Source of the DNA: Phycisphaerae bacterium
GTDB lineage: Bacteria > Planctomycetota > Phycisphaerae > Tepidisphaerales > Tepidisphaeraceae
DNA: 37,735 nt
Reading direction: 5' to 3'
Assembly (NCBI GenBank): GCA_025924315.1
Contig: JAICIO010000050.1
Coordinates: 1-37,735, forward strand
Shown here: positions 7,281-27,940 of the stretch, piece after piece
How the letters are laid out: each line of letters starts with the position of its first letter
Position numbering within the stretch: the first letter of the stretch is position 1
Translations under genes and position numbers: made by a program
The notes under the pieces: generated by a model
The model's input: the letters and a program-made list of their open reading frames with translations, nothing else
Told to the model about the DNA's origin: nothing
Databases searched by the model: none

Positions 7281-7358
7281 GTCATTCTGAGCGAAGCGAA
7301 GAATCTCGACATCGCGTGACGCGTTCTATCCGAGATCCTTCGCTTCGCTCAGGATGAC
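7281..7358. repeat. Palindromic repeat, copy 1
   Basis: An imperfect inverted repeat of 78 bp. The left arm at 7281-7308 begins GTCATTCTGAGCGAAGCGAA and the right arm at 7331-7358 ends with CGCTTCGCTCAGGATGAC; the arms pair along almost their full length around a loop of about 22 bp. The same element occurs at 10819, 14328 and 27867. This copy lies between the GH-A gene and the first GH10-like gene, where it could fold in the mRNA and partly separate the two expression units. Elements with this core are familiar as dispersed palindromes in many bacterial genomes. Confidence 0.9.
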
Positions 7359-7381
7359 AATGTTTGCGGACCGAGGTGGAT

Positions 7382-9094
7382 ATGAATCGACGTGATTTTC
7401 TGCGCACGAGCGCGGTAGTGGCTGCGACCGCGATCGGGTGTCGGTCGAATCGATCGCACCACCCCGCGCCGACATCCGGTCCGGCCGAGGAAGGCATCGG
7501 GCTGAGTCCGGAGGATTCCTACGCGGAGCGCAATGCATCCAAGGTTCCGCACCTTCGGGTGATTTTGAAAGAGGTGGATGATTCGCCGCTCGATCCGGAG
7601 CGGCTGAAGCTGATTCACGCTCGCGACCTGCCGAACGATCCGATTCCTGTGCCGATCGACGAATTGAAGGGCGAGGCGCTCGTCGGTCTGGCGAAGGAGC
7701 CGATTCAGATCTGTGTGCGATTGAAGGTGCCTGACTTCGGCGAGGTTTACTGCTTCGCGGACAATGACGGCAAAGGCTACACGCGCGTCGGCGATGTCAA
7801 TTTTGTCGTCGATGCCGCCGTCACACGCCTGGCTCGCGTAAAGAAAGTCATCGCGAAGAACGGCTGGCTCGGCGTTCCCTCCGATCCCGAACTCGACAAG
7901 CACCTCGAGGCCGCCGCCAAGCCGATCCCGAAAGAACCCGGCCCCGCGCGAACCGCCGCTGCGTATGAAGCGCTCTCGCATGGGTTGCACGCGGGCGAGC
8001 GATTCGTGCTGAATCTGGCGAAGCACCGCATCTCGCGACTGGCGGCGCCTCGGAAGAATTTCGGCTTCGGCATTCTGGGCGCGCACCCGGATCGCAAAGG
8101 TGATTACGACAAGCGGATCAACGAGCTGTTCAATTTCGCGACGGTCGCGTGGTACTCGTGGCGAGAGGAGAAATACGCCAAGACCGCGCAGCCGGTGGAT
8201 TACAAGCGGATGGACGAATCGATCGCGTGGTGCAAGGCGAACCACATTACGCCGAAGAATTTCGGGTATTTGTACATGACGCGCGGTGCGACGCCGGCCT
8301 GGCTGCGTCCGCCGGAGTTTTCAACCGAGACGACGGCGCCCGCGGTCGATCGCTTCAACTCGCGTTGGGGCTTCGACGAGCTTCGCGCGCTCTACAAGCA
8401 GATCGTTCACGACACCGCCGTTCGTTATCGCGGGCAGGTGCCATACATGGAGGTGATGAACGAGGCGCACGATAAGGCGAACCTTTGGCGGATGACGCAC
8501 CCGCAGGTGCTCGAGATGGCGCGCACCGTGTTCCAGGCGGCGCGCGATGGCGATCCGAATCTGAAACGGCAGATGAATCATTGCTGCCTGTGGGGCGAAT
8601 ATGCGAAGAGCCCGAATCCGGGCGGCGAGCGAAAATGGTCGCCGTATCGGTTCGTGCGAGATTGTCTCAGCAACGGCGTCGAATACGAAGTGATCGGCTT
8701 GCAGCTTTACTATCCGCAGTTCGACATTTTTGAGATCGATCAGATGCTGAATCGGTTCATGGATTTCAAGAAGCCGATGCACATTACTGAGATTGCATGT
8801 GCGTCGAAGGACACGCTCGATCCGCAAAGCATGCGGCCGAAGACGTACGCGCCGGGCTGGCACGGGCCGTGGACGGAAGCCACGCAGGCGGACTGGCTCG
8901 AGGCGGTTTACACGATCGTCTACAGCAAGCCGGAGTTTGAAGAGATCGGCTGGTGGGATTTGGACGACACGCCCGGCCATTTCTGGCAGCACGGTGGACT
9001 GTTGAATGCGGACATGACCCCGAAGGAAGCGTTCCGTCGATTGCGAAAGTTGCAGGAACAGTGGGGCGTGGCGAAAGAGATGGCGAAGCAGTGA
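7382..9094 (+). CDS. GH10-like glycosidase, Tat lipoprotein (first of a tandem pair)
   Basis: A protein of 570 aa. ATG 7382 is chosen because GAGGTGG lies just upstream and it starts exactly at the Tat motif NRRDFLRTSA; a TTG at 7364 is the only earlier option. The signal ends in AIGC, so Cys20 may be lipidated. Residues 45-200 form an N-terminal beta-rich module of unknown type. The barrel follows: YLYMTRGATPAW, then PYMEVMNEAHDKAN with Glu361 as candidate acid/base, and MHITEIA with Glu470 as candidate nucleophile, then GWWDLDDTP and GLLNADMTPKEAF like the GH10 C-terminal WGLxD and KPAY regions. GH10 enzymes are mainly endo-beta-1,4-xylanases. The first-strand motifs are divergent, so exact activity is uncertain. 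A paralogue follows with a GTGA overlap. Confidence 0.78.
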   Translation: MNRRDFLRTSAVVAATAIGCRSNRSHHPAPTSGPAEEGIGLSPEDSYAERNASKVPHLRVILKEVDDSPLDPERLKLIHARDLPNDPIPVPIDELKGEALVGLAKEPIQICVRLKVPDFGEVYCFADNDGKGYTRVGDVNFVVDAAVTRLARVKKVIAKNGWLGVPSDPELDKHLEAAAKPIPKEPGPARTAAAYEALSHGLHAGERFVLNLAKHRISRLAAPRKNFGFGILGAHPDRKGDYDKRINELFNFATVAWYSWREEKYAKTAQPVDYKRMDESIAWCKANHITPKNFGYLYMTRGATPAWLRPPEFSTETTAPAVDRFNSRWGFDELRALYKQIVHDTAVRYRGQVPYMEVMNEAHDKANLWRMTHPQVLEMARTVFQAARDGDPNLKRQMNHCCLWGEYAKSPNPGGERKWSPYRFVRDCLSNGVEYEVIGLQLYYPQFDIFEIDQMLNRFMDFKKPMHITEIACASKDTLDPQSMRPKTYAPGWHGPWTEATQADWLEAVYTIVYSKPEFEEIGWWDLDDTPGHFWQHGGLLNADMTPKEAFRRLRKLQEQWGVAKEMAKQ

Positions 9095-10797
9095 ACCGCC
9101 GGCATTTCCTGATCTCGTCCGCGGCGCTCGCGCTCGGCTGCCGCGCGCGATCATCGTCGCCGACCAGGCGCGCGCCATGGCCGGCACCGACGACGGAGGA
9201 AGCGAAGGGTCTGCGAGCCGAAAACGCAACGGCGGCGAAGAACGCCTCGCGCGGGCCGCACCTTCGCGTGGTCTTGCAGGAAGCCGATGGTTCGCCGCTG
9301 GGGCATGATCGCGCGCGGTTGCTGATGGCGCGCGATCTCGCCAACGACGCGTTTCCGGCGCCGATCGATGAACAGAAGGGGCTCACGCTCGTCGGGCTCG
9401 CAAACGAACCGTTGCAGGTTGCGGTGCGGTTGAAGGTCCCGGACTTCGGCGAGATCTACTGCTTCGCGGACAGTGGTGGGAAAGGTTATGAGCGGGATCA
9501 GGAAGTCGATTTCATTGTCGATGCGGCGGCGACGCGACTGCGGCGGGTGCGCGAGGCCATGGATGCCCAGCGCCCGCTGGGGATTCCGAGCGACCCGGAA
9601 TTGGACAAGCATCTCGACGAGGCGGCGCGACCTGTCCCAAGGGAGGCGGGCGCGGCACGAACCGCGGCGGCGTATGCATCTCTCTCGCATGGGTTGCATG
9701 CCGGCGAACGCTTCACGCTGAACCTCGCGCGCCATCGCATCTCGAAGCTGTCCGCCCCGCGGAAAGACTTCGGGTTCGGCATCCTCACGCATCCTGACGT
9801 CGGCGGCGAGTATGAGAAACATGTTGCCGACGCATTCAACTTCGGCTCGTGCGGGTGGGGCACGTGGAAAGACGAAGCTGCCGCCAGGGGCGATGCGCCG
9901 CTCGATTATGCCCGCGCCGACCGCTCGGTCGACTATTGCAAGCGCCTGGCGATGACACCAAAAATCTACGGTTATCTCTACGCCGCGAAGAGCGTCACAC
10001 CGCCGTGGATCAAACCGGAGTTTTCGACCGAAACCACTGCCCCCGCGATCGGTCGATTCAAAACGGGTTGGGGTTTCGATGAGCTTCGCGAGCTGTACAA
10101 AAAGATCGTTCACAACACGGCCGTCCATTATCGCGGGCGCGTGCCGTACATGGAGGTGATGAACGAGGCGCACGACAAGGCGAACATCTGGCGCCTGACG
10201 CACGAGCAAATGCTCGAGATGGCGCGCACAGTGTTTAACGCGGCGCGCGACGGCGATCCGGATGTGAAGCGGCAGATGAACCACTGCTGCCTGTGGGGCG
10301 AATATGCGAAGACACTCAATCCCGACGGCTCGCGCATGTGGACGCCGTATCGGTATATCCGCGATTGTTTTGAAAATGGCGTGGACTGCGAAGTGATCGG
10401 TTTGCAGCTGTACTATCCGCAGTACGACCTCTTCGAAATCGATCACATGCTTTCGCGTTTTCTCGACTTCAAACGGAAGCTTCACATCACCGAGATGAGT
10501 ACGCAGTCGGTGGATGGACAGGATCCGCAGAGCATGCGACCGACATCCGCGCCGCCGGGCTGGCATGGGCCATGGAACGAGACGATGCAGGCGGACTGGC
10601 TCGAAGCGATTTACACGATCGCGTACAGCAAGCCGGAGTTTGAATGCGTCGGGTGGTGGGACCTGGCGGACGTGCCCGGCAAATTCTGGCCGTATGGTGG
10701 CTTGCTCCATGGCGATTACACGCCGAAGGAGAGTTTCGTGCGGCTGCTGAAGCTGCAGGAGCGGTGGGGCGTGAAGAAACAGAACGTGAATGCATGA
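9091..10797 (+). CDS. GH10-like glycosidase, Tat lipoprotein (second of a tandem pair)
   Basis: A protein of 568 aa. The start is the GTG at 9091, which overlaps the previous stop (GTGA) and opens directly into the Tat-like signal NRRHFLISSA; LALGC is a good lipobox with Cys17. It is clearly a paralogue of the gene before it: both share VPYMEVMNEAHDKAN, RQMNHCCLWGEYAK, VIGLQLYYPQ and the same N-terminal module (PHLRVVLQEADGSPL). Candidate catalytic residues are Glu359 in VMNEAHD and Glu468 in HITEMST. The proteins differ throughout, so the duplication is not recent and the two may attack different linkages or chain lengths of a xylan-like substrate. The stop TGA overlaps an ATG of the next gene. 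Confidence 0.78.
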   Translation: MNRRHFLISSAALALGCRARSSSPTRRAPWPAPTTEEAKGLRAENATAAKNASRGPHLRVVLQEADGSPLGHDRARLLMARDLANDAFPAPIDEQKGLTLVGLANEPLQVAVRLKVPDFGEIYCFADSGGKGYERDQEVDFIVDAAATRLRRVREAMDAQRPLGIPSDPELDKHLDEAARPVPREAGAARTAAAYASLSHGLHAGERFTLNLARHRISKLSAPRKDFGFGILTHPDVGGEYEKHVADAFNFGSCGWGTWKDEAAARGDAPLDYARADRSVDYCKRLAMTPKIYGYLYAAKSVTPPWIKPEFSTETTAPAIGRFKTGWGFDELRELYKKIVHNTAVHYRGRVPYMEVMNEAHDKANIWRLTHEQMLEMARTVFNAARDGDPDVKRQMNHCCLWGEYAKTLNPDGSRMWTPYRYIRDCFENGVDCEVIGLQLYYPQYDLFEIDHMLSRFLDFKRKLHITEMSTQSVDGQDPQSMRPTSAPPGWHGPWNETMQADWLEAIYTIAYSKPEFECVGWWDLADVPGKFWPYGGLLHGDYTPKESFVRLLKLQERWGVKKQNVNA

Positions 10798-12995
10798 TCG
10801 ATATGAAGCGCGCCATTTGTCATCCTGAGCGAAGCGAAGGATCTCGATATCGGGAGTCGCTGGCAATCTCGAGATTCTTCGCTGCGCTCAGAATGACAGT
10901 GATTGCGCTCGTGTTCGTTACAACGTTGATCGCTCGTGGTGACGAGAAGTTCCGCGCCCCCGCGATTCCACTCATCACGCATGATCCTTATTTCAGCATC
11001 TGGGAAATGTCCGATCGCCTCACGGATGATTGGCCCAAGCATTGGACGGGCGCAACGCAGGCGCTGTGCGGAATGGTGCGAATCGACGGAAAATCGTATC
11101 GCTTCCTCGGCCCGAAGCCCGACGGTGTCAGCGTTGACGCGCTCGAGCAGAAGTCGCTCAAGATTTGGCCCACGCGAACGGTGGCGACGTTCGCGGCGCC
11201 GGGTGTTGAGCTCGAAGTCACGTTCTGTTCGCCGTTATTGCCGAACGATCTGACTACGTTCGCCCGGCCCGTGTCGTATGTTTTCGTTGGACAAAGGAAC
11301 GCGGATGGCAAGCCGCACACAGTCGAGGTTTACCTCGATGTCTCCGCGGAGATCGCCGTCAACTCGCCGGATCAAACGGTCGATGGCGCACGCGAAGATG
11401 CGTATCAACAAGCAGTGCCGTGCGCCGCCGGTGGTGACCCGATGTTGCTCAGCCTGGGTTCGAGCGATCAGCCGGTGCTCAAGCGCGGCGGCGATGGTGT
11501 GCGGATCGACTGGGGCCGAGCGTATCTGAGCGGCGAATACGCGTCGCACACAGCGCTCGGCAACGCGGTCGATCTCCGGCGGCAATTCGTCACCGACGGC
11601 ACGCTTCCGCCTTCTCGCACGGTAAAGGGCCAGGTCGTGCAGCAGGGATGGCCGGTAATGGCGATGACCCGGACCATTATGGGTTTCAAAGACCCATCGA
11701 TTCCGGACAAGACTTTTTTCCTCGTCGGCTACGATGAAGATTATGCGGTCGAATACCTCGGCCAAAAGTTACGCCCATACTGGCGAAAGGAAACGGACAA
11801 TTTCAGCGACGTGATCTTCAAGGCGTATTCGTACAACGAGCAGGTTCTAGAGGGCTGCATCAAGTTTGACGAGTCGTTGATGGCGGATTTGAAGGCAGCG
11901 GGCGGTGAGCAGTATGCACAGCTTGCGGCGCTCTGTTATCGCGAAGCGATGGCGGGGCATGGGCTCGCGCTATCGAGCGACGGCCGGCCTTTAATGTTCG
12001 CGAAGGAAAACTCATCGAATGGCTGCATCGGCACCGTCGATGTGATTTATCCCGCCGCGCCGATCTTTCTGCTTCTCTCGCCGAAATTGGTGGAAGCGAA
12101 TCTCGCGCCGGTGCTCGAATACGCCGAGCTTCCGCGGTGGAAGTGGAGCTTTGCCCCGCACGATCTCGGCACCTATCCGCACGCAAACGGCCAAGTGTAC
12201 GGCGGCGGCGAGCGGACGGAAGAGAATCAGATGCCGGTGGAAGAGTCAGCGAATCTGATCCTACTCGTCGCGGGGTTGGAAAAAGGTCTGCAAGGCCCAA
12301 CAAAGCTCGCGGAGAACCATCGCGCGCTCTTGAAAAAGTGGGCGGACTATCTTCTCGTGAAAGGCCTCGATCCCGAGCGGCAACTTTGCACCGACGATTT
12401 CAGCGGACATCTTGCCCACAACGTGAACCTCTCTGTGAAGGCGATCCTCGGCATCGCCGCATACGGGCAGATCTGCGAGACACACGGCGATCATGCCGAG
12501 GCCACCCGATATCTCGATGAAGCGAAGCAAATGGCGAAGAAGTGGGTCGCAATGGCGAAGGACGGCGATCACACGAAGCTCGCGTTCGACAAGCCGGGCA
12601 CCTGGAGCCAGAAATACAACCTCGTCTGGGATCGGGTGCTTGGATTGAACCTGTTTCCGCCGGAAATTGCGCGGAACGAGATCGCGTTTTACAAGACAAA
12701 GCTCAACAAATATGGGCTCCCACTGGACAATCGCGCCACGTTCACGAAAGTGGATTGGACCGTGTGGACGGCATGTCTATCGGATAATCAAGCCGACTTC
12801 GCGGCGCTGGTGAATCCGACGGTACGGTTTGCAAACGAGACGCCCGATCGCGTGCCGATGACGGACTGGTACCAGACCGATACCGGCCACGCCATGTCCT
12901 TCCGCGCCCGGCCGGTCGCCGGCGGGGTATTCATGAAGATGCTGTGCGATGAAAAAATGTGGCACAAGTGGATCGATGCTTCTAAAAGCAACTGA
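10794..12995 (+). CDS. Glutaminase-A-like (DUF4965/DUF1793) secreted protein
   Basis: About 733 aa from ATG 10794, which forms ATGA with the previous stop; ATG 10803 is an alternative. A palindromic repeat (10819-10897) lies in frame inside the 5' end, encoding HPERSEGSR and RFFAALRMT, and its last ATG (10893) starts a normal signal peptide (TVIALVFVTTLIARG). The mature protein follows the GtaA pattern: RAPAIPLITHDPYFSIW at the start, a beta-rich middle, then an alpha/alpha region with GCIGTVDVIYP, HDLGTYP, MPVEESAN, GTWSQKYNLVWD and SFRARPVAGG. Fungal members are described as glutaminases, but the fold is glycosidase-like and in this operon a role on carbohydrate is at least as likely. The final residues come from a CAACTG-rich short repeat. 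Confidence 0.8.
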   Translation: MIDMKRAICHPERSEGSRYRESLAISRFFAALRMTVIALVFVTTLIARGDEKFRAPAIPLITHDPYFSIWEMSDRLTDDWPKHWTGATQALCGMVRIDGKSYRFLGPKPDGVSVDALEQKSLKIWPTRTVATFAAPGVELEVTFCSPLLPNDLTTFARPVSYVFVGQRNADGKPHTVEVYLDVSAEIAVNSPDQTVDGAREDAYQQAVPCAAGGDPMLLSLGSSDQPVLKRGGDGVRIDWGRAYLSGEYASHTALGNAVDLRRQFVTDGTLPPSRTVKGQVVQQGWPVMAMTRTIMGFKDPSIPDKTFFLVGYDEDYAVEYLGQKLRPYWRKETDNFSDVIFKAYSYNEQVLEGCIKFDESLMADLKAAGGEQYAQLAALCYREAMAGHGLALSSDGRPLMFAKENSSNGCIGTVDVIYPAAPIFLLLSPKLVEANLAPVLEYAELPRWKWSFAPHDLGTYPHANGQVYGGGERTEENQMPVEESANLILLVAGLEKGLQGPTKLAENHRALLKKWADYLLVKGLDPERQLCTDDFSGHLAHNVNLSVKAILGIAAYGQICETHGDHAEATRYLDEAKQMAKKWVAMAKDGDHTKLAFDKPGTWSQKYNLVWDRVLGLNLFPPEIARNEIAFYKTKLNKYGLPLDNRATFTKVDWTVWTACLSDNQADFAALVNPTVRFANETPDRVPMTDWYQTDTGHAMSFRARPVAGGVFMKMLCDEKMWHKWIDASKSN
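10819..10897. repeat. Palindromic repeat, copy 2, inside a coding 5' end
   Basis: A 79-bp inverted repeat of the same family as copy 1. It begins GTCATCCTGAGCGAAGCGAA and ends CTGCGCTCAGAATGAC. It is in frame with the glutaminase-A-like gene and contributes about 26 codons with no stop. Its right end contains the ATG at 10893-10895, directly before the hydrophobic signal peptide. Confidence 0.9.
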
Positions 12996-13020
12996 CAACT
13001 GTCAATGGCAACTGCCAACT
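12989..13020. repeat. Short degenerate CAACTG direct repeats
   Basis: Units CAACTGA, CAACTGT, CAATGG, CAACTGC and CAACTA follow each other across the gene junction. The TGA stop of the glutaminase-A-like gene (12993-12995) lies in the first unit, and the array fills most of the 30-base gap to the next gene. It looks like a small tandem expansion. Confidence 0.6.
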
Positions 13021-13025
13021 AACTG

Positions 13026-14294
13026 ATGAAGATCACAGACATCAAAGCAACGACGGTGACAGTTCCGCTCGAAGCGCCGCTGCGGCATGCAAACGGGTGC
13101 CACTGGGGGCGGTTTGTGCGGACGATCGTCGAGGTGGAAACCGACGAAGGAATCACGGGCCTGGGCGAAATGGGCGGAGGGGGCGAATCCGCGGAGGCGA
13201 CGTTCCGCGCGATGAAGACGTATCTCGTCGGCCACGACCCCGCGCGCATCGAGGAGATGCGTTTTAAGATCGCGAATCCGACTGCTTCGCTTTACAACAA
13301 CCGCACGCAGGTGCTGGCGGCGCTGGAGTTCGCCTGCCTCGACATCCTGGGCAAGAAGTGGAACGCGCCCGTGCACGAGATCCTCGGCGGAAAGCTGCAG
13401 GATCGCGTGCCGTTCGCTTCGTATCTTTTCTTCCGCTATCCAAACGCCGACGGGAAGAATGAAGTGCGCACGATCGATCAGATGGTCGCGCATGTGAAGG
13501 AACTGAAGCAGAAGTACGGCTTCACGAGCCACAAGATGAAGGGCGGGGTTTTCGCGCCCGAGATCGAGCTCGATTATTTCCGCGCGATTGCGCACGCCGT
13601 CGGCGCCGACAAAGGCCCGGGACGCAATACCGATCGCGTTCGCTTCGATCCAAACGGCGTGATGTCCACCGAGCAGGCGATCCGCTTCGGCCAGGCGATT
13701 CAGGAGCTGAACAACGACTACTTCGAAGATCCGGTGTATGGGATGAACGCCATGCGCCGCGTGCGCGATTTCGTGCGCATTCCGACTGCGACCAACACGG
13801 TGGTGGTCGGCTTCGAGCAGCTTAGCGCCAACCTTCTCAACACCGCGGTCGATGTCATTCTGCTCGACACGACGTTCTGGGGCGGCATTCGCCAGTGCGT
13901 GAAGGCCGCGGGCGTCTGCGAGACGCTTCAGCTCGGCGTGGCGGTGCATTCATCCGGTGAGCTGGGGATTCAGCTTGCGACGATGCTCCAGCTGGGCGCG
14001 GTGATTCCGAATCTCTCCTTCGCCGCCGACGCGCACTATCACCATCTCGCGGACGACATCATCGTCGGTGGAAAGATGAAGTACGAAAATGGCTCGATCA
14101 AAGTGCCCGACGGCCCGGGACTCGGCGTGAAACTCGACCGCGAAAAGATGGGGAAATACAGCGAGCTGTTCAAGCGACTGGGCGCGTATCCGTACGATCA
14201 GGATCCGCTGCGGCCATGCTGGACGCCGATCATTCCCAACAATCGCTGGGCCGATCCGACCGACGCCCGCAATCCGGAGATCCGCGTATCATGA
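13026..14294 (+). CDS. Enolase-superfamily acid-sugar dehydratase, glucarate dehydratase-like
   Basis: A cytoplasmic protein of 422 aa without a signal peptide, starting at ATG 13026 ([11 protein letters not shown], the usual opening of the superfamily). Motifs follow the glucarate dehydratase subgroup: K170-M-K172 (the KxK base in HKMKGGV), metal ligands Asp208 (FDPNG), Glu234 (FEDP) and Asn257 (PTATN), and the Asp281 (LLDTTFWGG) and His308 (AVHSSGELG) dyad. Known glucarate dehydratases convert D-glucarate to 5-keto-4-deoxyglucarate. The presence of both the KxK lysine and the His/Asp dyad says the active site is intact. It is coupled to the GH2 gene by ATGA, and its neighbours release and import uronic acids. 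Other acid sugars are possible substrates. Confidence 0.82.
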
Positions 14295-17200
14295 CGTTCT
14301 TCGCACAACCGAAAAACCCGGCGAGCAGTCATCCTGAGCGAAGCGAAGGATCTCGGGATCGAACGACGCGCTCGATTTCGAGATTCTTCGCTGCGCTCAG
14401 AATGACAGCTGTCGTGGCGCTTATGAGCCTCACGGTCACATCGACGGTACACGGCGAGGTGCAAGGCGGAGGCATCAACATCACTCCCGACCAGCTAAAG
14501 ATCGGCAATAAAATCGACCTCACCGGTAAATGGTTCTTCAAGCCGGGCGTTGATGAAAAGTCTCCCGAGAAGGCGGAGTCGAGCGAAGGATATCTCACCG
14601 TTCCCGTTCCGCAGATGCTCAGCCGAATTCAGTGGTGGCTGGACGATTCGGAGGATTTCAAAAAGTGGGAAGACGCGCGGCTGAAGTCGCTGGGGTTCGA
14701 TACGGAGAAGACGGACGAAGGTTGGTACCGGCTCGAGTTCGACTGTCCGCAGCTTGCGAAGGATCAGCATCTCTGGATCGAGTTCGACGGCGTGGCGATG
14801 AAGTGCAAGACGTTCTGCAACGGTGCGCCGGTGGGTGAAGACAAGGGAATGTTTCATCGATTCGGTTACGACCTGACGCCGCATCTCAAGGCAGGCAAGA
14901 ACGTCCTCGCGATGTGGGTGTCGATGGAAAAGATCCCGCCGACGGAGGGAAATCTTGGCGAAGCGGTGACGGTGAATTTATCGGCGGCGAAAGTGATCTC
15001 GATGAGTAAGGGGATGTTCGGTCCGCTCACCGCGGGCAAACCGAATCGGGATTACGATCTCTATGGCATCTGGCAGCCGGTGAAGTTCGTCGTCCGCGGG
15101 CCGGCGCGGATCACGGATGCCTTTTTCCAGACGACACCGGATTTGAAGGGCGCAAAGATAGATGTCGATCTTCAATCGTCGGGTCTCCACGGCAACGTGC
15201 GCGTTCGTGCTCGGTTTACGGATCCCAAAGCGCCCGCCCACGCGGCACGATTCGAGCTATCGCAGACTGCGCCGCTCGCGGGTGTTGCTCACGTCAACCT
15301 GCAAGGCTCCGGCTTTGATGTGAAACCATGGACGCCCGCGGAGCCGAACCTCTACAAACTCGAGATCACCCTCGAGGACGAAAAGGGCGAGGTGCTCGAC
15401 CGCTGGACGCACAACGTCGGCTTCCGCACCTTCGACATTAAAGGCAATCATTTCTACCTGAACGGCAAGCCGTACTTCCTTCGCGGGGCGGATCAGGCGC
15501 CTTATGGGAAGAATCCGACCGATCCGGCGCTCGCGCGCAAGTACATCCAATACATGCACGACGGCAATCAGCGGTTCACGCGCACGCACGCGACGCCGTG
15601 GAATGAGCCGTGGCTCAATGCCGCCGACGAAATCGGCGTCGCGGTTAGCATCGAAGGGATTCGGCCGTGGGCGTTCGCGGGCAAAGCGCCGGAAGGCAAG
15701 CCCGCCATCATGCCGCCGAAGGACATCTTCCAGCATTGGCTGATGGAAAACGAAGACGTCGTGAAGCGCTGCCGCAACCATCCCAGCGTGTTCATCTTCA
15801 CCGTCGGCAACGAGATGATGCTCCGCGATGGGAAGAATATGGAGAAGTGGAAGCTGCTGAGCGAGGTCACAAAGAACACGCGGAAGTTTGCGCCGGGTTA
15901 TCCGATCGTGTGCTCGTCGGATTATGTGCGCGATCCGGGTTTTTACGAGAAGTCGCTTAAGCCCGCAGGGATCGATGATGGCGATGTCGACGACATGCAT
16001 CGTTACAGCGGCTGGTACGGTCCGTCCGCGTTCGTGATCAACTCGAAATTCGAAAAGGAAATGAAGGACAACCAGAAGAAGCGCCCCCTGATGGGCCAGG
16101 AATTCGCGACGGGCTATCCCGATCTCGACACTGGCCTGCCGGTGCTTCGTTACACGCGCGACCTGCTCACCCCGCAGGCGTGGATCGGGCACTGGGCTTA
16201 TCCCGGCAACGACCCCGCGTTTTTCCTGAATCACCTTGCGGTGCTGACGAAGCGTTGGGCCGATCAGCTGCGCTTCGAGCGCGGCGATAACACGTCCGGC
16301 TTCGGCCTTTTCAGCAGCGAGTGCTGGTACAAGCACAGCTACGATCCCGCGACGATCGAACCGTACGCACCGATTTACAACGCGGTGAAACTTGCGTGGG
16401 CGCCGATCGGGGTCGCGCTCGAAACCCCGCGGCGACGCTTCTATGCCGGTGATGAAACTTCCACCATCCTGCACATCACGAACGATGACGAGTCATTTCG
16501 CGATCTCTCGAATCTGAAGATCAGCGTCTACTTCAAGGATCCGAAGAACGTCGATCAGCCGATGAAGCAGGACGTCGGTGAAGTCGATTCGCTGCCGTAT
16601 TACAAGACCGCGGACGTGGACATGAAGTTTAAGCTGCCGACACCCGAGGCCGATCGCGCGGCAATAGTGATGGTCGTTCAAGTGACGAGCGACGGTAAAG
16701 AGATCGGCCGCACAGAAGACCCGATCGAGGTCTTCAAGAGGATCGAGATCCCGGAGAAACATGGTGACGATGTCATTGTGATGAAGCCAGATGAGCCGAT
16801 CGGTGATCTCGCAGAAGGGAAGCCGCTTCGGCAGAAAATCGAGGACGGCGCGACGCTCATCGTCTTCTCGCCCAAGAAGGAGATCGTTTCGCTTTTCCCG
16901 AACGATCTGATCGACGCGAAAGAAGGCAAAGGCGAATTCGCGGATTGGTTGCCGGCTGCGGGAACGAAGCTCACGAAAGATCTTCATCCGATGGACCTGA
17001 AGTGGTGGGGCAAGAAGCTCCTCGATCGTGAAGGCGCGTACATCTCGACGCAATCGCATCGTCTTAAGCTCGGCGGAAAGGCGCGCGAGCTGATTCGATT
17101 CATCCCCCCGCACGGCTATATCTCCGAGGAGAAAGTTTCCGAGCAGTATCGCTGCGTGATGTCGGAGATCCCGATCGGCAAAGGCCGGCTGTGGATCGTC

Positions 17201-17368
17201 GATCTCGATGTGCAGGATTCGGTCGGCGCTGATCCTGCGGCGGATTTGTTTGCGCGGAATCTGATCGAGGCGGCAAGCGATCCGGAATCAACGAAGGACC
17301 TCAAGCCGGTTCCGTCGCATGAAGAATTTTTGAAAGGCGCGGATCGGGAAAAGATGACGTTAGATTGA
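14291..17368 (+). CDS. Secreted glycoside hydrolase family 2 protein
   Basis: About 1025 aa from ATG 14291, which overlaps the previous stop (ATGA). A palindromic repeat (14328-14406) is read in frame, and its last ATG (14402) begins a normal signal peptide ([17 protein letters not shown]), so the functional start may be 14402. Residues about 75-230 are the sugar-binding domain ([33 protein letters not shown]). An immunoglobulin-like domain follows, then the TIM barrel opening [17 protein letters not shown]. Candidate acid/base is Glu508 (TVGNEMM); candidate nucleophile is Glu604 (MGQEFATG). The C-terminal 350 residues add beta domains. GH2 includes beta-galactosidases, beta-glucuronidases and beta-mannosidases; the specificity is not readable, though the neighbours make a uronate substrate plausible. 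Confidence 0.8.
14328..14406. repeat. Palindromic repeat, copy 3, inside a coding 5' end
   Basis: A 79-bp inverted repeat of the same family, from GTCATCCTGAGCGAAGCGAA to CTGCGCTCAGAATGAC. It is in frame with the GH2 gene, 37 bases after its first ATG, and encodes [12 protein letters not shown] and [11 protein letters not shown]. The ATG at 14402-14404 at its right end immediately precedes the signal peptide, the same geometry as copy 2. Confidence 0.9.
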
Positions 17369-19753: not shown

Positions 19754-20146
19754 GCCGCAGCAGGCTCGCGAAGGCGCAAGCGACGGTCGTGGCCGATCCG
19801 AACAGAAGCGTCGCTCGTGCCTTCGGACCCACTTGCCGCGCGAAGTATTTGAACGGGATTTTTTCAATCCCGCGCCCGATTTACGGCGTATGATATCTAC
19901 GGCCCCTCGGGGCTCATGCATACGATCGTTGTCGTCTGAGTCGTTCGGTTGACGAAGGCAGTCACACCGGCGCCACCGCGGTGAGTTCTTCAAGCCGCGG
20001 CTATTACTCAGGATAGCTCACACGTTTTTCGCGAGTCGGTGCACGCCGATGCGTGCATTGGTGCCCATGGAAAATTGTGTACAAATTGAGAATAATTGTA
20101 TACCGTGCCAAACCTGCGGGGGATTTACTTATGCGGAGTGCTTGAT
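19754..20146. other. Intergenic region after the transporter
   Basis: About 390 bases without a convincing gene. A small hairpin at 19854-19872 (CGGGATT, loop TTTTC, AATCCCG) and a GC hairpin near 19901-19915 could end transcription of the sugar locus. The last 70 bases hold the promoter and operator-like dyad of the first pseudopilin gene. A short open frame across 19713-19952 has no start signal and no recognisable product. Confidence 0.5.
20075..20103 (+). promoter_or_regulatory. Promoter with overlapping operator-like dyad, copy 1
   Basis: Half-sites GTGTACAA (20077-20084) and TTGTATAC (20096-20103) form an inverted repeat with an 11-base spacer. The same bases can be read as a -35 (TTGTGT, 20075) and a -10 (TGTATA, 20097) with 16 bases between. 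The dyad, spacing and downstream leader are repeated before the second pseudopilin gene. Dyads of this kind are typical operators; the binding protein is unknown. Confidence 0.55.
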
Positions 20147-21067
20147 ATGACGTCCCGCTCTCGTCTCGCCCGACTCACAGCTTTCACCTTGGTTGAACTC
20201 CTCGTCGTCATTGGAATCATCGCCGTCCTGATTTCGATCCTGCTTCCGACGCTTGGCAAAGCACGAGAGGCGGCCAATCGAACCAAGTGCCTCGCAAATC
20301 TGCATTCCATCGATCAGCTGCTCGTCACATACGCTACCCTCAACCACGACCAAGTGCCGATTGGGATCAGCGGGGCTGATTCAGGCAGCGGTGTTGTAAA
20401 AGACTCCGACGACTTCTACCTCACGCGCAAGACCGGTGCCTCGGGCACGCCCGATCCGGATTCGGTCCTGCTGCCCCCGAAGATTCCGATGCGCTACATG
20501 GGGCTGGGACTGCTCATCAAAGCAAATTTGGTGAAGGTTGGGTCGGGCGAGATCTTCTATTGCCCTTCGTATGTTGATCGAACCTACACCTACGACTTTC
20601 CCGGCAATGAGTGGCCGCCGCAGGGAAACTGCCGTTGCACCTACTCGTGCCGACCGAGCACCAACAATGTCAACCCGACGGCAGGATCACAGGCAACAGA
20701 TTTCGTTTACTGGTGCACAGGATCGAACAAAGGCCCGTTCTACCCGCTGAAGGTAACGCCCGGTACGGCGGATGTGCCGACCCCACAACAAGCTGGGGCG
20801 ATGTTCAAGCTGTCGAAACTGAAAAACAAGGCGATCGTCAGCGATTTCAACGGCGCGAACAATCTCGTCGACCAGCACCACAGGAAAGGATTGAACGTTC
20901 TTTACGCCAATGGTTCTGCGAGTTGGGTGGACCGCTCGGCGATCGCCAAGCAGATCGATGTGCCGCAACCAAACGGGTGGGGCGACATCAATTTCACGCT
21001 CGCAAGCTCCAACTTCATCCACGACATGATCTGGAACAACTTGGACCATGGTGGCCAGCAGTACTGA
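20147..21067 (+). CDS. Type II secretion pseudopilin-like protein, H-x9-NG type (copy 1)
   Basis: A protein of 306 aa. ATG 20147 is chosen because TGCGGAGTGC ends 5 bases upstream, exactly as in the second copy; the frame also extends back to 20096, inside the promoter. The N-terminus is a class III prepilin signal: basic residues, then [20 protein letters not shown], with Glu at the +5-type position and cleavage before Phe. [18 protein letters not shown] continues the pilin helix. The C-terminus has [15 protein letters not shown] after a His nine residues earlier, the H-x9-[DN]G signature of DUF1559-like proteins, which are highly multiplied in planctomycetes and relatives. Its role, perhaps a surface or secreted structure, is unknown. 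Confidence 0.85.
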
Positions 21068-21280: not shown

Positions 21281-21325
21281 GCTCTTAACGAAATCTTGGG
21301 GGCGCACCTTTGCGGAGTGCACCGT

Positions 21326-22276
21326 ATGCCTTCCCGCCGTTCTGATCGATCGATCGGCTTCACCTTGGTCGAACTCCTCGTCGTCATCGGAATCATCGCG
21401 GTGTTGGTCTCGCTGCTGCTTCCGGTTCTAGGCCGGGCGCGCGAGGCGGCCAATCGCACCAACTGCCTCGCCAATTTGCACTCGATCCATCAACTCTTGG
21501 TGATGTATGCTGTGTTAAATAAGGATCAGGTTCCACTGGGTTACAGCGGTGGGGACAACGGCGGCGGCACCGAATCGAGCAGCTACTGGCTGACACGCTC
21601 GTCCAGCGCCAGTGGATCTCCTGATCCAGATTCCGTCATCGCCGGCTTCCCCCTTCGCTACATTGCACTGGGGCTGCTCTTCAAGCAGAACCTCGTGAAA
21701 GAAGGCATGGGCAGGAGCTTTTACTGCCCGAGCTTCGTCGAACGAGATTTTCAGTACAACATTCCAAGCAATCCCTGGCCGCCTTCGATCAACCGGAGTT
21801 GTCGCATCAGCTACGCGACTCGGCCAAGCACGAACAACCCGAAGCCCAACGTCTCTGGCAATTACGCGTCCGATCGCGTGTATTGGGGCACGGGTAGCAC
21901 AGCTGGTACACCGTTCTATCCGTTGAAGCTCGATCCTTCGAGCGCGTCGCTCTATCCCGTGCCCGCTGGTCAGCCCAAAGCTTCGCAGCCGATGTTCAAG
22001 CTCGCCAAGCTCAAAAGCAAAGCGATCATCAGCGACATGAATCAAAACAATCAGTGGGTCGACCAGTGTCACAAGAAGGGCATCAACGTTCTTTTCGCGA
22101 ATGGATCCGCCAGCTGGGTGGATCGTTCGGCGATCGCGAAGCAGATTGATATTCCCACAACAGCTGCGCCACCCGCCGGGCCCGGCTGGGGCAGCATCAA
22201 TTACAGCGCGACGACCTCAGATTACATCCACGACATGATCTGGAACTGCCTCGATCACGGCGGCCAGATCTACTGA
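21326..22276 (+). CDS. Type II secretion pseudopilin-like protein, H-x9-NG type (copy 2)
   Basis: A protein of 316 aa, paralogue of the preceding gene. ATG 21326 has the same TGCGGAGTGC box 5 bases upstream. The prepilin motif [20 protein letters not shown] is followed by [19 protein letters not shown]. Both copies share the order CPS(F/Y)V, RPSTNN, FYPLK, MFKL(S/A)KLK, and H-x9[17 protein letters not shown], then end [15 protein letters not shown]. The middle part differs in loops, so the copies have diverged since duplication. As with copy 1, the N-terminal helix should be cleaved and methylated by a prepilin peptidase and inserted in the inner membrane or a pseudopilus. Function is not known. 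Confidence 0.85.
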
Positions 22277-27866: not shown

Positions 27867-27940
27867 GTCATCCTGAGCGCAGCGAAGGACCTCGATAACG
27901 AGCGTAGCTCCCGATCCCGAGATCCTTCGCTCAGGATGAC
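27867..27940. repeat. Palindromic repeat, copy 4
   Basis: A 74-bp, slightly shortened member of the family seen at 7281, 10819 and 14328. The left arm is GTCATCCTGAGCGCAGCGAA and the right arm ends CCTTCGCTCAGGATGAC, lacking a few bases. It lies about 75 bases before the start of the Gfo/Idh/MocA gene. Confidence 0.88.

Follow-up and report, generated by a model that had tools for sequence, protein, structure and literature searches.

How does a palindromic repeat of 79 bp come to lie inside the 5' coding end of a gene for an exported enzyme, and how can it do so twice in one stretch of DNA? The question is raised by a contig of a Phycisphaerae bacterium (JAICIO010000050.1 of assembly GCA_025924315.1, here contig C50), of which 37,735 nucleotides were analysed and are referred to as the window. 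Two copies of a repetitive extragenic palindromic (REP) element, each a head-to-head pair of arms, are read there in frame between the upstream start codon and the hydrophobic core of the signal peptide, one in a glutaminase-A-like gene and one in a glycoside hydrolase family 2 (GH2) gene. Followed into the whole assembly (6.57 Mb, 262 contigs), the same arrangement was found in 18 genes. The explanation that we consider probable is that copies lying some 20 nt after stop codons fall into the first codons of an overlapping next gene, and survive where these codons form the n-region of a signal peptide. The features of the window that bear on the question are:

10794..10818, forward strand: probable ancestral start and signal-peptide n-region (MIDMKRAI) of the glutaminase-A-like gene, from comparison with orthologue n-regions
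10819..10897, forward strand: 79-bp head-to-head REP pair at the 5' end of the glutaminase-A-like gene (arms 10819-10845 and 10871-10897)
10893..10895, forward strand: in-frame ATG from the right arm of this repeat
10899..10934, forward strand: signal-peptide hydrophobic core VIALVFVTTLIA of the glutaminase-A-like gene
10794..12995, forward strand: coding sequence of the glutaminase-A-like exported enzyme, read through the repeat (PF16335, PF17168, PF16334)
14291..14327, forward strand: probable ancestral start and n-region of the GH2 gene, its ATG at 14291 overlapping the stop at 14292-14294
14328..14406, forward strand: 79-bp head-to-head REP pair at the 5' end of the GH2 gene (arms 14328-14354 and 14380-14406)
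14402..14404, forward strand: in-frame ATG from the right arm of this repeat
14408..14449, forward strand: signal-peptide hydrophobic core of the GH2 gene
14291..17368, forward strand: coding sequence of the GH2-type exported enzyme, read through the repeat (PF00703, PF02837, PF02836)
7281..7358, forward strand: third full copy, 78 bp, extragenic, 5 nt before an open reading frame (ORF) with a TTG start
27867..27893, forward strand: half copy, a conserved arm

The original prediction had described the two in-gene repeats, and its coordinates, frame and geometry agree with the sequence. In the glutaminase-A-like gene, the ATG at 10794 overlaps the previous stop at 10795-10797 (ATGA), a second in-frame ATG stands at 10803, and the frame through the repeat reads ...SRFFAALR-M(10893)T-VIALVFVTTLIARGDE, so that MIDMKRAI and VIALVFVTTLIARGDE, flanking the repeat, can be read as a putative n-region and core. 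The GH2 frame passes its repeat as ...SRFFAALR-M(14402) and then enters the core. Both repeats are thus there as described, although they are not the only ones in the window: the third full copy, placed before a GH10-like gene with a weak Tat-signal match (PF10518), and the half copy are also present, and the arm pattern (up to three mismatches) has 7 matches in the window versus none in 100 shuffles. The claim that the ATG of the element begins a textbook signal peptide did not survive, the sequences read from it (MTVIAL... and MTAVVAL...) being without a basic residue before the core; basic residues are supplied by the upstream codons or by the element itself (SRFFAALR).

Searched for over the genome with at most two mismatches, the arm gave 157 forward and 155 reverse matches, 312 together, compared with 1 for the reversed control, and these merge into at least 155 element places. 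The 134 stretches around element places that were analysed, using a regular expression with up to two substitutions, hold 111 full head-to-head elements, 82 of them exactly 79 bp long, and 46 half elements. Of the three frames of a 79-bp copy, one hits a TGA in the left arm and another a TGA in the right arm, while the third (HPERSEGS...RFFAALRMT) meets neither and ends in ATG. This ATG-ending frame is open in 156 of the 164 readings of the 82 copies of 79 bp and, since the element is nearly palindromic, the property is common to both orientations. The element ends in this frame with R-x-FA-(A/S)-LRMT or a similar sequence, which includes two arginines in most copies. The shared frame, the absence of stops and the terminal ATG seen in the two genes of the window are therefore all true, but they are a single property of the element and not separate coincidences. 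One 80-bp copy (C4:95442, given as contig and position) has a different open frame in its right arm and is still in frame with its own upstream ATG.

A genome-wide count of repeats in frame with signal peptides, suggested in the original prediction, extended the pattern well past its two cases, to 18 genes in which 16 full and two half copies are found in frame between an upstream start and a signal-peptide core:

Full copies: C1:141945, C4:95442, C5:119516, C7:34145, C12:59007, C24:27050, C50:10819, C50:14328
Further full copies: C58:32229, C61:29705, C65:25925, C116:2053, C121:6756, C177:6519, C184:6800, C196:2086
Half elements: C2:18169, C32:51618

Of the 268 element ends, 23 continue in phase and without a stop into the downstream gene, and 17 of the 23 run into a signal-peptide core as judged by eye, C4:95442 being added from the frame-2 list. 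Those dropped from the 23 were C9:77796 and C91:5706 (likely native start downstream of the element), C65:13245 (a permease with no cleavable signal seen) and the doubtful half arms C4:2019, C109:16607, and C117:12569. The 78-bp copy C34:50756 went uncounted as well; its gene has the called start at the element ATG, but there is no hydrophobic start and the element is not open.

An in-frame ATG is located 4-64 nt before the element in 16 of the 18 genes, C24 having a TTG, and in nine of the 18 the upstream ATG overlaps the previous stop by 4 nt (ATGA), compared to 25 of 235 same-strand neighbour pairs (p 1e-4; the 25 may include some of the nine). Measured on all 23 in-phase ends, an open in-frame ATG within 60 nt upstream is present in 16, versus 42 of 245 other element ends (p 2.7e-7), and a hydrophobic segment comes just after the element in 19, versus 163 of 549 other genes (p 4e-7) or 274 of 549 (p 0.002) when the span searched was made generous to the controls. 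Raw hydrophobic ends, whether followed by a gene or not, number 26, 7, and 14 by frame among the 268 ends. The codons preceding the element carry a basic residue in 16 of the 17 genes with an upstream start (by eye), in 16 of the 18 neither a basic residue nor a native start intervenes between element and core, and in 17, all except C4:95442, an in-frame ATG of the element stands immediately in front of the core. Pfam matches above the cut-off were obtained for nine of the 17 set genes scanned (C4:95442 was left out) and comprise glutaminase A, GH2, peptidase S41, DUF1570, regulator propeller, BT_1020-like propeller, DUF2961, GH5 cellulase, and amidohydrolase families. Signal-peptide n-regions account in this way for 18 of the 21 in-gene placements found, while they make up some 1-2% of coding sequence on a rough assumption.

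Orthologues with and without the repeat had also been proposed as a check. No arm match was found in 35 of the 61 genomes searched. A relative without arm matches (G020, 86% complete) encodes orthologues of four set genes, with identities of 52% (glutaminase), 60% (GH2), 69% (S41 peptidase), and 65% (DUF2961). All four lack the element and have uninterrupted signal-peptide-like starts; their N-termini, read from the DNA, go from a short n-region straight into the core (e.g., MSLRCIALALASLSLAVSFAPAAVAG and MNRIALLLPMICLAACAFA), and in three of the four a basic n-region adjoins the core. Of 20 other glutaminase matches, one (L046) is a fragment lacking the N-terminus, and the N-terminal stretch of the other 19 is free of the repeat, about 13 having an ordinary signal peptide (by eye).

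The place of the element among genes was followed with a simple hexamer coding-potential caller (713 genes, 85% coding). Of the 111 full copies, 93 lie between genes, 11 and 6 coincide with the start and the end of a called gene, respectively, and one is internal; 43 of the 46 half copies are outside called genes. Seven of the 93 "intergenic" copies and both signal-peptide half copies nevertheless belong to the set of 18, the caller having placed the starts of their genes after the core or after the element, so that these copies came out as intergenic. With both neighbours called (109 copies), the flanking strands are -- in 39, ++ in 37, +- in 24, and -+ in 9. Unidirectional copies are found at a median of 21.5 nt from the upstream stop (n=62), versus 23.5 nt for signal-peptide copies (n=14; p 0.54), and since the two distances are alike no target preference for signal peptides is needed. 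Of the suggestion that insertion at this place is tolerated or favoured, the first half therefore stands, with its recurrence in 18 genes, and the second is not required.

One likely course of events can be proposed from these data. Where the next gene starts on the stop (ATGA), a copy at the usual distance would fall 7-21 codons into it, the range seen in the nine genes with this overlap. With two bases added to its 79 bp, the insert would measure 81 bp (27 codons) and leave the frame intact, and one phase in three would lack an arm stop. A gene whose first codons form a signal peptide might then tolerate 27 extra residues, and the copy would survive for two reasons: the extra length is confined to the n-region, which is removed together with the signal peptide, and the element end puts basic residues directly before the core; these last residues, mostly with two arginines, may themselves serve as n-region. 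Translation, which to judge from the sequence most likely begins at the upstream ATG, would still proceed from this old start and give a precursor with about 27 extra residues, none of which would remain in the mature enzyme. The flexibility of the n-region, already put forward as a possible reason for the two cases of the window, fits best. As to whether the repeat adds residues or has become the start site, the two possibilities originally left side by side, we favour added residues, the upstream ATG being kept in 16 of the 18 genes and overlapping a stop in nine.

Several observations weigh against this explanation. The set was curated by eye after seeing the data, with signal peptides recognised by hydrophobicity and not by a trained predictor. 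Hydrophobic N-termini at called starts showed no difference (12 of 23 versus 33 of 80, p 0.47); it was after this null result that the measurement was taken from the element end, the caller being judged often to start genes past the core. In C61:29705 the start is only within the element and none is upstream, in C196:2086 the upstream codons have no basic residue, in C4:95442 and C7:34145 there is one arginine between element and core, and two of the 16 full copies in the set measure 74 and 86 bp. The apparent n-region of the GH2 orthologue in G020, MPMLCLGILSTVAHA, is likewise without a basic residue. Three in-gene placements were found outside signal peptides, namely at the N-terminus of a permease (C65:13245), in a loop of a membrane protein (C16:1117), and at a C-terminus (C14:25509). 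A hairpin of -30 kcal/mol just after the start codon could also lower translation, so the insert is maybe not neutral. Finally, two results from other genomes belong here. In a relative of the same family (G025), the 30 ends examined, which represent 30 loci among 93 exact matches, show no frame-0 hydrophobic segment, and among the matches listed in a cross-genome contig scan (118 stretches) frames 0, 1, and 2 were represented by 47, 56, and 20, with no general frame excess, in a test that is weak as some frame-1 matches share a longer repeat edge. Limited to a hydrophobic segment with an ORF of 100 amino acids or a contig edge, the same 118 listed stretches gave 11, 1, and 5.

The arms of G025 (loci L319-L348) are mostly about 170 bp apart and often read MTSVG at the edge, perhaps as parts of a longer element built from the same arms. 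A layout similar to that of the 18 genes was seen by eye in Acidobacteriota (L220), Omnitrophica (L231), and Deltaproteobacteria (L263) contigs, only the right arm being clear. On Bacteroidales and Firmicutes contigs (L298 and L214), a half arm, reading MRFFASLRMT or another sequence of ten residues, directly precedes a hydrophobic stretch, followed in the first case by a lipobox-like SCG; possibly these are n-regions made of repeat.

Some placements within or at the ends of genes can be described in their own right. The single full copy called inside a gene body (C16:1117, locus L099) is 76 bp long and in frame in a mannosyltransferase-like membrane protein, where it directly precedes a hydrophobic segment as in the signal-peptide cases. 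At C14:25509 (locus L096), one of the six copies at called gene ends, the full element forms the C-terminal end of a 617-residue called gene; it is read almost whole, in a frame other than that of the signal-peptide copies (VILSEAKDL...), and the TGA of the right arm is the stop. At C4:10429, C5:90839, C13:21251, C30:37028, and C65:5116 the called gene overlaps an arm by 10 nt and the arm TGA is again its stop. The element can end genes as well, with the arm TGA as stop in these five full elements.

As to the nature of the element, the arm consensus is GTCAT-N-CTGAGCG-N-AGCGAAG-N'-ATCTC and the whole runs GTCAT...ATGAC. In 219 of 222 arms the variable bases N and N' can pair with each other, whereas the two arms of one element agree at N in only 60 of 111. 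Such covariation within arms, with weak agreement between them, indicates that each arm is its own hairpin and the whole a head-to-head pair, and a palindrome working only as a cruciform was rejected. The terminal tag is mostly (T/C)GTC (G 218, T 219, C 221 of 222 arms), the preceding base being T in 69 and C in 28 of 111 on the left and, mirrored on the right, A in 69 and G in 29. The stem starts with a paired AT (A3 220, T4 220, A22 221, T23 220 of 222 arms), and the arm tail is CTC (C 218, T 216, C 217 of 222). The outer T/A bases are complementary in 49 of 111 copies, no more than base frequencies give by a rough estimate, and because they do not covary the 81-bp unit is derived from the reading frames and not from covariation. 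Two arm types fold as 5 bp plus 2 bp across a tandem mismatch with a 3-nt loop and a third type otherwise, and as single arms none of the three folds clearly better than its own shuffles; for the full element the predicted hairpin has -30.2 kcal/mol (z -7.1). No target-site duplication was seen in the 111 full copies, in which no left/right flank identity stood out.

By its sequence the element appears closest to the REP superfamily tagged TGTC/CGTC, and we place it near this superfamily and not in a named family because its tail is CTC and its stem and loop lengths are unconfirmed as matching. The repeats are probably small, non-autonomous palindromic elements. REPINs (REP doublets forming hairpins) and BIMEs (bacterial interspersed mosaic elements) are mobilised by RAYT transposases. 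In a search for a RAYT/IS200 mobiliser, the 10 Y1_Tnp matches in the genome had no arms within the flanks examined (up to 1.5 kb), one flank hit at five substitutions being taken as chance, and with 262 contigs a copy may have been missed. The GTAG tetranucleotide tag of REPIN/RAYT systems was not found in the 222 arms.

Other explanations of the same arrangement have to be weighed. The element could be kept for a function in RNA or regulation where genes are coupled, by which the upstream mRNA is stabilised or coupled translation of the downstream gene damped, and its place in signal peptides could be a by-product of tight spacing. This would fit the strong predicted hairpin and the position of copies close to upstream stops and rarely between divergent genes (9 of 109), and such roles have been proposed in the REP literature (PMC3733652). 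However, there is no sign of conserved position, 35 of the 61 genomes being without an arm match, and the orthologues of four set genes do without the element, so that we hold a regulatory device to be rather unlikely. Nor do we think it likely that the element has become the start site, with translation from the right-arm ATG (M-T-core) and the upstream ATG a relic. In its favour, 17 of the 18 genes have an in-frame ATG of the element next to the core, the gene caller did put the start at the element ATG in 11 of the 111 full copies, and C61:29705 has no start upstream of the element. Yet most genes would be left with no basic n-region (MTVIAL..., MTAVVAL...), the ATG lies in the predicted stem, and the conserved arm in front of it has no purine-rich ribosome-binding motif at the usual distance, although this genome may not rely on such motifs. 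The upstream ATGs, moreover, are kept in 16 of the 18 genes and in nine as ATGA overlaps, which relics need not be, even if a recent insertion could also explain it.

A more prosaic possibility is an artefact of gene modelling, with ordinary extragenic repeats and true starts downstream. Many N-terminal REPs may be extragenic for that very reason (Di Nocera et al., PMC3733652), and C9:77796 and C91:5706, both dropped, have a likely native start downstream. The retained genes look different: by eye they show no conserved downstream start with an n-region, and in 16 of the 18 (the exceptions being C4:95442 and C7:34145) nothing basic and no native start separates element and core, while basic residues precede the element in 16 of the 17 genes with an upstream start (by eye) and three of the four G020 orthologues have a basic n-region beside the core. 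An artefact of this kind seems to us very improbable. We thus retain as the probable explanation the survival, in signal-peptide n-regions translated from the upstream start, of copies that fell into overlapping genes.

What this adds is a pattern within one genome, with 18 of 21 in-gene placements in n-regions, where intragenic mobile palindromes were known as scattered cases. Placement in the n-region, a segment probably cleaved, would explain the persistence of intragenic repeats. The signal peptide seems to be a site where a palindromic element can sit in a gene with little harm, and the gene seems to tolerate it. A broader version, which we put forward only tentatively and consider doubtful, is that palindromic mobile DNA finds a safe harbour in signal peptides generally, and that elements of a multiple of three with a stop-free frame that ends in basic residues and ATG act as portable n-regions, replacing or extending those of their hosts. 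On the practical side, annotated gene starts near REPs need care, and the set amounts to some 18 natural experiments on the extent to which a signal-peptide n-region can be lengthened.

Two further features of the window were noted apart from the repeats. The neighbouring GH10-like genes at 7364-9094 and 8953-10797 share long in-register DNA stretches 72-85% identical at a spacing of about 1.7 kb, and are probably a tandem duplication to judge from these stretches. Between 20073 and 22337 there are two similar tandem ORFs (20096-21067 and 21296-22276). AT-rich motifs that resemble each other (20073 and 21250) stand at or ahead of the two starts, and each ORF is followed by a similar hairpin and T run (21092 and 22305, 91% alike).

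REPs and other palindromic repeats in genes, also at N-termini, are known already, as are in-frame Rickettsia palindromic elements (RPEs) and one Yersinia signal peptide; no report of repeated REP placement in signal-peptide n-regions came up in searches of the open-licence PubMed Central (PMC) literature. The CGTC/TGTC REP superfamily has an unpaired tag CGTC, often TGTC or CCTC, a stem of 8-9 bp starting with AT, a loop of 4-5 nt and, in most members but not all, a tail CCA; head-to-head dimers predominate and there is no dedicated transposase (Di Nocera, De Gregorio, Rocco 2013, PMC3733652). Our element resembles it in the foot tag, the AT stem start, the head-to-head pairs and the lack of a flanking transposase, and also in being mostly intergenic near upstream stops, with few copies between divergent genes and some at gene N-termini (PMC3733652). 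It differs from most members in its tail CTC instead of CCA, and its stem and loop lengths are not confirmed as matching (PMC3733652). The same paper leaves N-terminal copies as often extragenic, and the term "signal peptide" is absent from its main text (PMC3733652). With REPINs and BIMEs the element shares the two inverted REP hairpins, here with no target duplication seen, but the GTAG tag and the RAYT association were not found for it (PMC3733652). RPEs, two of which (RPE-4 and RPE-6) reportedly belong to the CGTC REPs (PMC3733652), are also palindromic repeats in frame within host genes; they are about 105-150 bp long and occur in varied genes including guanylate kinase, unlike the 18 of 21 placements in n-regions seen here (PMC2229807, PMC10969869, PMC3733652). 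A further precedent is a gene of Yersinia in which part of the predicted signal peptide comes from a mobile repeat, RU-2/YPAL (Delihas 2007, PMC2759123). That element is unrelated and the case concerns one locus with a strong prediction (YPO1552), whereas the element described here is found in 18 genes of one genome and sits between n-region and core (PMC2759123).

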